Assembly: GCA_016872645.1 (NCBI GenBank)
Contig: VGZH01000004.1
Span: forward strand, 1-64,000
Length of the DNA stretch: 64,000 nt
Source: Planctomycetota bacterium
GTDB taxonomy: Bacteria; Planctomycetota; Planctomycetia; Planctomycetales; Planctomycetaceae
Reading direction: 5' to 3'
The notes under the pieces were generated by a model that made no database searches, had not been told where the DNA came from, and saw nothing but the letters and a program-made list of their open reading frames with translations. Below are positions 33,774 to 37,075 of the stretch, piece by piece (positions within the stretch are counted from its first letter, which is position 1; each line of letters begins with the position of its first letter). Made by a program: the position numbers and the translations under genes.

Positions 33774-33801
33774 GGCGGTGGGGAGGGGTTAGGAGTCGAG
33801 G

Positions 33802-33837
33802 GACAGAAAGCCAATGACAGAAGACAGAGGGCAGAAG
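33802..33837. repeat. Heptamer array between the FlgI-like gene and smc
   Basis: GACAGAA, AGCCAAT, GACAGAA, GACAGAG, GGCAGAA follow each other with a 7-base period. A weak opposing arm (TTCTGACCG and CCTCTGAT) follows at 33841-33862. The element fills most of the 94-base gap upstream of the smc start. Confidence 0.7.
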
Positions 33838-33867
33838 TCCGTTCTGACCGCCGGCCTCTGATTTCTC

Positions 33868-35853
33868 TCATTTGCGTTTCCAGAATTCGAACCAGCGTCG
33901 TTGGGCATCGTCGGCTGCCGTCGAATTGCGAGCGTCTGCGACAGAGGCGGTGCCATTCGAGTCGGTTTCAGACTGCGCGAGTTCGTCGGGTGCGGCGGTC
34001 TGCTTCTCCACAGCGTCGCCTTCCGAAAGCTTGGTGTTGCCGTCGTCTTTGAGATTCGGGACGAAGTTCGGGACGAGGTTCGCGTTGCCGACTCGGACTT
34101 TCTTGCCATTGGATTTGGCGGAGTCATCCTTGCGAACGTACTCGCGGCCACCTTGTGGTAGAGCGTCGATTTCGATGCGACCGGAGAGATTCTGTTGCTT
34201 GGCGGCCTGAAGCAGCAATTGCGCGACATCGGGATAGCTGGCTCCGAATTCGACGGCGGTGCGAATGACGTCCGCCACGCGTGTCGAAACTTCTTTGCGC
34301 TTATCCGGTTGGCCGGCTTGGTATCGGGAGATCACGATGCGATCCGTGGCGGGCTGTGCCGTGACAAGGATGTGATTGCCGGCTCGCACAGCCAACGGAG
34401 TTTTGAACTGCTGGCCTTCGCCGAAAAGAACGATTTCCGATCGGCGATGCTGCGTCAAATGGATGATTGGGTCGCCCGTGGTCGGCAGCGTGTGCAAGGC
34501 GAAGAGTTCGCGGTCAGAGTTGGCCTCGTGCATCATTTCGCCGTTGAGATACGGGTCACGTTTGTCGAGCGTCCACAATGCGCGAAAGGCTCCGTAACGG
34601 AGTTCCGCGCTGTCGACGATCTTGCCGGTGTTGTCCGTTTGTGAATTAGTCAGTTTCCGAAGCAACAGATGAGCCTCACCGTCATCGATCGTCGAGAGTG
34701 CCGCCAGCGCATATACGCGGAAGGCTCGCTCGTTGACGGCCACCTCGCCAAGAACGGGCGCCGCTTCGGCTTGACCGAGGTATGCCAGCGCGACGGCCGC
34801 ATTGAAACGGACTTCCAAATCAGGATGCTTCAACCCCGTTTTGAGAATGGGGATCGCTTCGTTGCCGATCGCCTCCAACTGCAATGTTGCCAGTTCTGTC
34901 GTGTCGGGATCGAGCAATTGCGATTTCAATTTCTCCATGCGGACATGCCGTGCGACCGGCGTCTCGCGAAACGCGATGTTTCGGATCACTTCGCGATACC
35001 GCGGGTAGTTGTCCTTGTAGCGCGGAAGCACTTTCAGCTCGATCGTCTGATCAGTGAGTGCTTTGGCCAACGGTTCACGCAAGCCGCTTTCGTTGTAAGC
35101 GAAGAATCGTTGACCGATCTTGTCGGCAATGCGTTTTGACTGTCGCACGCTGCGAAAGTCACTGCGAAGCTGGATGCGCAGGTCGCGGTCTTTTTTGGAG
35201 GCACCCCCGCCTAAAATTTTCCCGCGCCGCTTCAAGCCCGTGTTGTCGGACTTTCCTTCGCCAGATGTGACCATGATCGGCCCTTTGGCCTTTCCTAAAA
35301 TATGGCCTTTCATCACACCTTGACCGGGAATGATGGCGGATTCAGACAGTTCCGTTTCCAGCAGCCAGCCGCCATTGAGACTGCTGGTGGTGTCGCCATC
35401 GGGAACGCGAACCTCAACATCAAAGGCTTCACCCTTGCGAATCATTGGTGGCAAGTACGCACGCACGATGACCAACGCGGTGTTCGGCGAACGCAGGATT
35501 GTTTCAGGATCGTCGATCCCGCGGCGACGCATGTCGTCTGCGAGCACTTCACGATAACTCGAGGGTGGCGGATCACTGCCGGCCCCATCTAACCCGACGA
35601 CCAACCCAACGCCTTCCAAAGTCACCAGATTGAGATTTGCAAATCCGGCATAGTCGCCGACCATCGGAGTCTCGACTTTCGTCTCAAACTCATTGTCCTT
35701 TTCGTCGTCTTTCTCAGCTTCCTCATCCTGCTTGTCGGGTGACTGCGATCGCAGCAGCTTGGATGGCAACAGTTTGAAGTCTTGGCAGCCAACGATGGAG
35801 CCGGCCAGTAGCAAGCTCAACGTCAGACAAATGCTGTGTCGAAACGCCTTCAT
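33868..35853 (-). CDS. FlgI-like lipoprotein with HEAT-like segment
   Basis: The start at 35853 (MKAFRHSICLTLSLLLAG) follows a GGGAG site and gives 661 residues with a lipoprotein signal: the lipobox SIVGC puts the modified cysteine at residue 23. After an acidic linker (DKQDEEAEKDDEKD) comes a FlgI-type domain: LVTLEGVGLVVGLDGAGSDP, NTALVIVRAYLPPMIRKGE and FDVEVRVPDGD match the flagellar P-ring protein. Residues about 325-400 then read like HEAT repeats (AIPILKTGLKHPDLEVRF, NAAVALAYLGQAEAAP). No flagellar genes are nearby, and P-ring proteins are not lipoproteins, so this is more likely a planctomycete envelope ring or scaffold protein that reuses the FlgI fold. The C-terminus is low-complexity and basic. 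Confidence 0.75.
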   Translation of the reverse strand: MKAFRHSICLTLSLLLAGSIVGCQDFKLLPSKLLRSQSPDKQDEEAEKDDEKDNEFETKVETPMVGDYAGFANLNLVTLEGVGLVVGLDGAGSDPPPSSYREVLADDMRRRGIDDPETILRSPNTALVIVRAYLPPMIRKGEAFDVEVRVPDGDTTSSLNGGWLLETELSESAIIPGQGVMKGHILGKAKGPIMVTSGEGKSDNTGLKRRGKILGGGASKKDRDLRIQLRSDFRSVRQSKRIADKIGQRFFAYNESGLREPLAKALTDQTIELKVLPRYKDNYPRYREVIRNIAFRETPVARHVRMEKLKSQLLDPDTTELATLQLEAIGNEAIPILKTGLKHPDLEVRFNAAVALAYLGQAEAAPVLGEVAVNERAFRVYALAALSTIDDGEAHLLLRKLTNSQTDNTGKIVDSAELRYGAFRALWTLDKRDPYLNGEMMHEANSDRELFALHTLPTTGDPIIHLTQHRRSEIVLFGEGQQFKTPLAVRAGNHILVTAQPATDRIVISRYQAGQPDKRKEVSTRVADVIRTAVEFGASYPDVAQLLLQAAKQQNLSGRIEIDALPQGGREYVRKDDSAKSNGKKVRVGNANLVPNFVPNLKDDGNTKLSEGDAVEKQTAAPDELAQSETDSNGTASVADARNSTAADDAQRRWFEFWKRK

Positions 35854-36235
35854 GACGTTGCTCCCGAAAGGGACAGACGGGTGAGTCGCTTCATCGCGAG
35901 CTGTCGGAGCGCGTGAATAGCGCGGCATCTGAACGACGCGACAATTCGTACGCCTGAGGCTGGCGGTGAAACAATCGGAAGGAATTAAACGGTGAGAATT
36001 TCAGACAGGAAAACGCGCGGCCAGATCGCCGAGCGGCAGGAATGGGGCGGAACAGTACGTCCGGTCGCGAGAACGGGTCAAGGTGTCTCTCGCAGCGGAT
36101 GAGCAGCAAATCCGACGGGGCCGTGCAACGTGCAGAGTTCAAAGTGAAACATGTCCAACGGATCTTCTGTGTCGCCCCATTTCGCACTTTGCAGTTTGCG
36201 CTCTGCACTGACGTGTAGCGTGGCCGCGTTTCTGG
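35854..36235. other. 382-base gap upstream of the FlgI-like gene, with heptamer arrays
   Basis: The gap between plsC and the FlgI-like gene should contain the latter's promoter on the minus strand. No coding frame is convincing. Its only strong structure is the heptamer array pair at 36123-36210. Confidence 0.5.
36123..36210. repeat. Heptamer array pair after plsC, same heptamer as at dcd
   Basis: The left arm 36123-36150 reads GCAACGT, GCAGAGT, TCAAAGT. The right arm 36181-36210, read on the opposite strand, gives GCAGAGC, GCAAACT, GCAAAGT, GCGAAA. The units match those at 22968-23093, 13 kb away, in period, sequence and opposed layout. Confidence 0.85.
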
Positions 36236-37003
36236 TTACTTCGCCTCATCGGTTGACGGGCAATACCGCACTCCCCCTAGTTCGGCCAGCTTGCGCATCA
36301 GCAAGTCGGTCAGTGCCTGAAGCACCTCTTGCGATTTTCGTTGTCCTTGCCACGGGCTCAAGTCGATGGGGGTGCCGTAGGTCACTCGCACGCGGCTGGG
36401 AGAGTAAAACGGCTCGATCATGCTCTCTCCCTGAGGTGCGCCGTCGATGTAAACCGGGATGATCGGGACCCCGGATTTTAGAGCCAGAAACGCGATACCG
36501 GGATTCGCGGCACGCAGCCCCTCGCCCGTATTGATGCCACCCTCCGGGAAGATGCCGATCAGATCCCCCTTTTCGAGCCGCCGGATCGCATCACGCGTCG
36601 GACCGATGTCGTGGCCGTCTCGATCGACCGGGATTGACTGCATCGCCCGTCCGACCCAGCCGACCAAGCCGGGCTGTTCGTAATACTCGCGGGCCATCAG
36701 ATAGCCGATGACGCGAGTCGACCGAGCAGGTCCTTCGTACCGCAAGTGCGAGTTCATCCAGGCCAGCATCGGGTCCACAGGGCTACGATGATTCGACAGG
36801 ATGATTGCCCCACCGAACTCCGGATACGGGCAACGGCCACTGGCTCGCCAGTGAAACATGAACGCGACATACAAGCGATTCATGATGTACAGCAGCCAGA
36901 CCCGCCAATCATCTCGACACCGTCGTACCGACAGCGACACCAACCCGACCGCGATTATGGCATAAGCCAGCAACACCAATTGCGCGAGTTGGTCAGGTGT
37001 CAT
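36236..37003 (-). CDS. plsC: 1-acyl-sn-glycerol-3-phosphate acyltransferase (PlsC family)
   Basis: The start at 37003 (MTPDQLAQLVLLAYAI) gives 255 residues. An N-terminal hydrophobic helix anchors it to the membrane. The acyltransferase motifs are clear: NHRSPVD (the HX4D catalytic pair, near residue 71), a glycine-arginine block and FPEGGIN (near residue 155), and VPIIPVYIDG near 185. The enzyme puts the second acyl chain on lysophosphatidic acid in phospholipid synthesis, though relatives acylate other lipids. It lies 72 bases after truB, with a heptamer array in the gap. Confidence 0.88.
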   Translation of the reverse strand: MTPDQLAQLVLLAYAIIAVGLVSLSVRRCRDDWRVWLLYIMNRLYVAFMFHWRASGRCPYPEFGGAIILSNHRSPVDPMLAWMNSHLRYEGPARSTRVIGYLMAREYYEQPGLVGWVGRAMQSIPVDRDGHDIGPTRDAIRRLEKGDLIGIFPEGGINTGEGLRAANPGIAFLALKSGVPIIPVYIDGAPQGESMIEPFYSPSRVRVTYGTPIDLSPWQGQRKSQEVLQALTDLLMRKLAELGGVRYCPSTDEAK

Positions 37004-37044
37004 GCTTGTTCGCTGGGGCGGATGTGGTGGTGCAGCTGTCGACG

Positions 37045-37065
37045 GAGTATTGAGTACTGAGTACT
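37045..37065. repeat. Three heptamer units between truB and plsC
   Basis: GAGTATT, GAGTACT, GAGTACT run without a break from 37045 to 37065 in the gap upstream of the plsC start. It is the shortest array of the set and has no opposing arm; each GAGTACT is itself nearly palindromic (AGTACT). Confidence 0.75.
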
Positions 37066-37075
37066 GGCAACTCAA

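Follow-up and report, generated by a model that had tools for sequence, protein, structure and literature searches.

The window analysed here is a stretch of 64,000 nucleotides of contig VGZH01000004.1, from a Planctomycetota bacterium of the class Planctomycetia (hereafter, the class). Its minus strand carries a gene, referred to below as FlgI-HEAT, whose product joins a lipoprotein signal, a FlgI-like region and a HEAT-like block (Table 1). The ATG at 35853 was taken as the start, which gives 661 aa; with the in-frame ATG at 35928 instead, the protein would be 686 aa long. A previous sequence-only reading had described a lipobox, a P-ring (FlgI) domain and HEAT-like repeats in one protein, encoded between plsC and smc with no flagellar gene nearby. 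All of these elements were recovered: the lipobox pattern IVG-C occupies aa 20-23, Pfam identifies both domains, and the flanking genes encode a PlsC-like acyltransferase, which is common to the closest relatives only, and SMC. When flagellar families were searched genome-wide, the only match inside the window was the FlgI-HEAT gene itself. The analysis confirms the observation and strengthens it beyond the initial description.

Table 1. Features of the FlgI-HEAT locus (positions within the window; aa, residues of the 661-aa protein).
Feature	Position	Strand	Remarks
FlgI-HEAT lipoprotein gene	33868..35853	-	661 aa; stop codon counted in
Predicted lipoprotein signal peptide, aa 1-23	35785..35853	-	lipobox IVG-C23, Gln at +2
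Charged linker, aa 24-66	35656..35784	-	from sequence
FlgI N-terminal two thirds, aa 67-295	34969..35655	-	IRU and OR domains, named as in the available text of PMC8298488
HEAT alpha-solenoid insert, aa 296-449	34507..34968	-	Pfam core 309-385
FlgI C-terminal third, aa 450-567	34153..34506	-	IRL-like
C-terminal tail, aa 568-661	33871..34152	-	low sequence conservation (alignment)
Spacer between FlgI-HEAT gene and smc	33774..33867	-	94 nt
smc, 1249 aa	30024..33773	-	SMC_N, SMC_hinge; conserved downstream partner
PlsC-like acyltransferase gene	36236..37075	-	upstream neighbour

The Pfam FlgI model (PF02119) matches aa 67-302 of the window protein with an E-value of 5.7e-20 and 72 bits (cut-off 25.3), and HEAT_2 (PF13646) matches with 33.9 bits (cut-off 27.7). 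The best FlgI model of NCBIfam, PRK05303, scores 63.1 bits, below its cut-off of 300 bits. Against the PDB, a phmmer search with the window protein retrieved flagellar P-ring chains (E 4.7e-8), and a profile of 26 FlgI-HEAT rows retrieved Salmonella-type FlgI with an E-value of 1.7e-27, together with a second stretch in the same protein, the last 51 residues of the PDB FlgI, with an i-E of 0.0027. Two stretches of FlgI are thus matched by this profile, one reaching mature residue ~237 and the other covering residues 295-345. The HEAT insert also matches PDB alphaReps in the family profile search.

For profile comparison with hhalign, 43 FlgI-HEAT members of the class, window protein included, were set against 48 FlgI proteins of the same phylum, which are not a random sample of flagellar FlgI because the source searches rank by FlgI score; of the 60 FlgI loci that the two ranges contained, 12 were passed over by the motif and length filter and so left out. 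The segment preceding the HEAT block matches FlgI with a probability of 99.9 and an E-value of 2.7e-34. The part after it (~aa 469-563) matches the C-terminal end of FlgI with a probability of 74, a weak match taken alone, and an E-value of 2.7e-5, against 2.6 and 0.018 for the reversed control. The HEAT region gave no match to the FlgI profile (probability 0.3). In genome G167, the Pfam FlgI model is matched at positions 8-230 and then 233-343 within a single reading frame. The FlgI homology, which the sequence-only reading had placed at residues 60-320, therefore does not end there, but resumes past the HEAT block. Given that the post-HEAT sequence matches the end of FlgI, the window protein appears to be a whole FlgI, of ~345 residues, interrupted by a HEAT block after FlgI residue ~230-240. 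According to the domain limits in the available text of PMC8298488 (OR 1-11 and 160-230, IRU 12-159, IRL 231-346), the block lies at or just past the OR/IRL boundary. At the level of profile comparison, these results show FlgI-HEAT to be a FlgI homologue in which a predicted HEAT solenoid splits the FlgI sequence near that boundary.

AlphaFold2 gave the FlgI part a mean pLDDT of 38.4 when the whole protein was predicted and 36.4 when the N-terminal FlgI part was, and this low confidence is attributable to a shallow alignment of ten near-identical sequences. In the whole-protein prediction, pLDDT was 72-86 over aa 301-370 of the HEAT block and 53-65 from aa 371 to 410.

Lipoprotein signals were called by sequence pattern rather than by a signal-peptide program. 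With a relaxed pattern, a lipoprotein-type signal is found in 34 of the 43 class members, window protein included, and in 18/18 members of a second group described below, hence in 52 of 61 sequences overall; a stricter lipobox pattern retains 28/43 class members. Given nine of the 43 class members have no recognisable lipobox (among them all the sequences sampled from f5, f102 and f103, three, three and one respectively), lipid anchoring is not essential everywhere; it looks ancestral and lost in places. By these patterns, FlgI-HEAT is an exported, mostly lipoprotein-type precursor. A twin-arginine-like motif precedes the lipobox in five precursors (L053-L055, L063 and L123), which suggests Tat export in some lineages.

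Searches covered the phylum Planctomycetota, with 59 genomes of the class and a separate draw of 392 phylum genomes. FlgI-HEAT is present in 59/59 class genomes, representing 36/36 genera. True full-length FlgI, with rows read by hand, is found in 32 of the 59, and FlgH in the identical set of 32; the remaining 27 lack both FlgI and FlgH, and all of them carry FlgI-HEAT. Rod domains are found in 35/59, FlgA in 40/59 with weak matches counted, FlhA in 53/59 (counting a short piece in G420) and FliP in 52/59, and the six genomes with neither an FlhA nor an FliP match retain FlgI-HEAT. Strict co-occurrence with flagellar genes is hence absent, which bears out the earlier suggestion that this FlgI-like protein is not tied to flagella. 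In the host genome, which is 99.99% complete, models of true FlgI, FlgH, FlgA, the rod and FliF_C gave zero matches, FliF_C being an insensitive marker that also goes unmatched in a number of genomes that do have FlgI, FlgH and rods.

Some export genes persist in the host genome. FlhA lies with FlhF-like and MinD/FlhG-like genes (G000:C2, L125:6352-10629), and FliP lies with a gene that is FliR-like by eye (G000:C69, L187:925-3943). Likewise, 18 of the 24 rod-less class genomes retain FlhA at full length, an export gate lacking its flagellum. Copies of the FlgI-HEAT gene with 91-93% identity occur on contigs titled Candidatus Kuenenia stuttgartiensis (L032-L034), and these titles look wrong.

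In the phylum draw, FlgI-HEAT was detected in 40/40 class genomes with E-values of at most 9.8e-149. Among the matches listed, a second group comprises 41 genomes of nine other families (f7, f49, f51, f60, f67, f73, f78, f89 and f96), with long matches at E-values from 2.6e-76 to 4.9e-27, and all genomes drawn from these families matched. The nine families are probably Phycisphaerae, as we infer. For the phylum count, the matches listed, which reach down to E 2.6e-21, were restricted to long ones with E <= 4.9e-27 and a frame of at least 539 aa; the raw profile tally of 341/392 overstates the family, weak E-values also taking in flagellar FlgI and other proteins. Of ten second-group members scanned with Pfam, FlgI was matched in 10/10 and HEAT_2 in 10/10 at E <= 0.008, with 6/10 above the curated cut-off.

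The N-terminal FlgI region of 105 rows was placed in a tree by a quick method, with eight near-copies of the window protein left out and no FlgI from outside the phylum as outgroup. All 55 FlgI-HEAT rows form one clade with an SH-aLRT of 100, and flagellar FlgI falls outside it. The clade splits into the class (37 rows, SH-aLRT 91) and the second group (18 rows, SH-aLRT 89); the inner order is unsure, since several rows have long branches. FlgI-HEAT forms its own planctomycete branch within the FlgI family, distinct from the P-ring protein of the flagellum, and is best read as an old, flagellum-independent paralogue of FlgI within Planctomycetota.

Other unusual FlgI relatives were observed in the phylum. 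Genomes of genus g3 carry an additional FlgI paralogue of ~590-630 aa (L183:8951-10837 and L184:9059-10822, both on the minus strand), and in two of these genomes a single frame holds a ChapFlgA-like stretch followed by the FlgI part; inspection by eye showed no flagellar genes beside the paralogue. Like FlgI-HEAT, it is a second, non-canonical planctomycete FlgI, yet it differs in its ChapFlgA-like stretch and in grouping with flagellar FlgI, on a long branch. Genome G353 encodes a mini-FlgI of 142 aa (G353:C62:14303-14575, in L186) that matches profile positions 1-33 and 303-343 only. It lies near an FlgA match and an ORF that is flagellin-like by eye, and G353 has no FlgH match.

The smc gene is the sole widely shared neighbour of FlgI-HEAT in the 25 loci compared. 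When 40 loci from distinct genomes were clustered, smc was found in 32/40, and the next best family in 4/40. A profile search placed smc downstream on the same strand in 17/22 class loci and 16/18 second-group loci; in the latter group it lies within 250 bp in 15/18 and at 2784 bp in L175, and none was found in L173 and L176. So as not to pick loci, SMC_hinge was surveyed in all 59 class genomes. A single match was obtained in 45 of them, the genomes with a detectable smc, and in 42 of the 45 it lies directly downstream of FlgI-HEAT. The three exceptions are G274 and G167, where the two genes are apart, and G402, where they lie on short contigs, the first of which ends 362 bases past the match. 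No SMC_hinge match was found in the remaining 14 genomes, all of family f5 (14/14), and FlgI-HEAT is kept there. The f5 smc is lost or strongly diverged.

Since these 14 f5 genomes keep the gene, FlgI-HEAT does not need smc, and an SMC-dependent function is weakened as an explanation. Direct contact with SMC is not expected either, given SMC is cytoplasmic and FlgI-HEAT is exported. A joint transcript is nevertheless plausible from the layout of the locus, since the spacer is 94 nt long and simple scans of it reported neither promoter-like nor minus-strand terminator-like sites. Apart from smc, the loci compared share no conserved neighbour.

In comparison with flagellar FlgI (PF02119; 7CLR, 7BGL), FlgI-HEAT shows homology along the N-terminal two thirds and a weaker match at the C-terminal end, yet it differs in its HEAT insert, its lipoprotein signal, its own clade, its smc neighbour and its independence of flagella. 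FlgI, which assembles into a 26-fold ring, has a non-lipid Sec signal peptide, whereas a lipobox is found in the window protein and across the 52 lipoprotein-type sequences, and the rod, FlgH and FlgA that accompany FlgI all went undetected in the host genome. Lys95 of Salmonella FlgI sits near the rod, as described in the accessible portion of PMC8298488. The corresponding site is basic in 41/48 flagellar FlgI against 5/43 FlgI-HEAT sequences, which mostly have Thr or Ser, and the contrast at the Lys63 site is weak (30/48 against 14/43); the window protein has Pro and Ser at these sites. The loss of the Lys95 site, combined with the loss of rod genes, argues that FlgI-HEAT grips no rod.

With FlgH, the L-ring lipoprotein, FlgI-HEAT would share the character of a lipoprotein of an envelope ring (PMC8298488, available text), here predicted from sequence, but it has no FlgH domain in Pfam, and FlgH was not detected in the host genome. 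The outer-ring domain FlgI-OR resembles secretin N3 and OmpA-like or MotY-type wall-binding domains in fold, as far as the available part of PMC8298488 states, so that the copied domain could plausibly contact the wall, although none of these families was matched by sequence in the Pfam scan of the window protein. The insert itself resembles HEAT_2/alphaRep solenoids (PF13646), here lodged inside the FlgI sequence of an exported protein.

As the sequence-only reading had proposed, we infer that FlgI-HEAT forms a ring in some other envelope machine, and it is probably one component of an envelope structure yet to be described. In specific terms, we consider it about an even bet that this non-flagellar FlgI paralogue forms a periplasmic collar tethered to the outer membrane and is produced jointly with smc. 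The lipid would fix the protein to the periplasmic side of the outer membrane, and the FlgI-like domains would pack side by side into a collar within the cell-wall layer. The HEAT blocks would stick out from this collar as docking arms for a partner, and a joint transcript with smc would couple synthesis of the protein to chromosome replication and segregation. FlgI-HEAT may in this way be the envelope collar or anchor of a non-flagellar planctomycete machine, plausibly one for growth or budding. No partner machine was identified among the conserved neighbours.

A ringless arrangement, which we regard as a somewhat unlikely but serious competitor of the collar, would make FlgI-HEAT a monomeric or small-oligomer periplasmic scaffold, its FlgI fold being reused as an anchor to the wall and outer membrane, its HEAT block binding a partner, and the smc link reflecting a shared promoter only. 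The export and mostly lipoprotein-type signals called by pattern are consistent with such a scaffold, as are the likeness of the FlgI outer-ring domain to wall-binding folds (PMC8298488, in its available text), the scarcity of a basic residue at the Lys95-equivalent site in comparison with flagellar FlgI, and the persistence of FlgI-HEAT where smc is undetected. Yet the FlgI stretches flanking the insert are conserved family-wide, beyond what a simple anchor would appear to need. A collar whose HEAT arms link both membranes could, distinctly less probably, be a component of crateriform structures. Crateriform complexes are reported to link the outer and cell membranes in P. limnophila (PMC5394234, available text), and FlgI-HEAT, with its predicted export and lipid anchor, occurs in every class genome sampled; it has no sequence link to known crater proteins, however, and the terms FlgI and P-ring are absent from the available text of PMC5394234.

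Two further explanations start from flagellar remnants. The host genome retains FlhA and FliP without rods, FlgH and FlgA, and the full-length FlhA of most rod-less genomes would likewise fit a wall ring of the reduced flagellar-type export apparatus (FlhA, FliP) retained by many non-flagellated planctomycetes. We hold this to be very improbable, given the six class genomes with no FlhA or FliP match that retain FlgI-HEAT, the lack of a conserved neighbour but smc, and the presence of FlgI-HEAT also in genomes with complete flagellar rings. The idea of a leftover from a lost flagellum draws on the same host genome, which has lost rods and rings and keeps some export genes, but it is contradicted by the distribution, the separate clade and the mostly intact frames. 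FlgI-HEAT stands beside an intact FlgI in 32/59 genomes, its clade is old and separate, the gene order with smc is conserved, and frames are open nearly throughout, with an internal stop in one of the 59 main class matches (G423).

The most far-reaching version of the collar model, which we put forward as a rather doubtful extension, would make FlgI-HEAT the founder of another type of P-ring, in which a collar held by lipid anchors carries solenoid arms. This collar would belong to the core envelope equipment (crater or budding) and, being encoded in a single operon with smc, would couple the building of the envelope to chromosome segregation in a lineage reported to divide without FtsZ (PMC12283558, available text). 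The open-access literature searched yielded no report of a FlgI-HEAT protein, of a non-flagellar FlgI or of a FlgI-smc pair in planctomycetes.

Given P-ring proteins are taken as flagellum markers, FlgI-HEAT is likely labelled flagellar in organisms without flagella. To our knowledge, the parts of planctomycete craters and of the budding machinery have not been identified. FlgI-HEAT is amenable to test in the flagellated species Planctopirus limnophila, where transposon data on gene essentiality are available (PMC10632474, available text). As an exported protein found throughout the class sample in a fixed pair with smc, it is a concrete candidate for planctomycete envelope biology.
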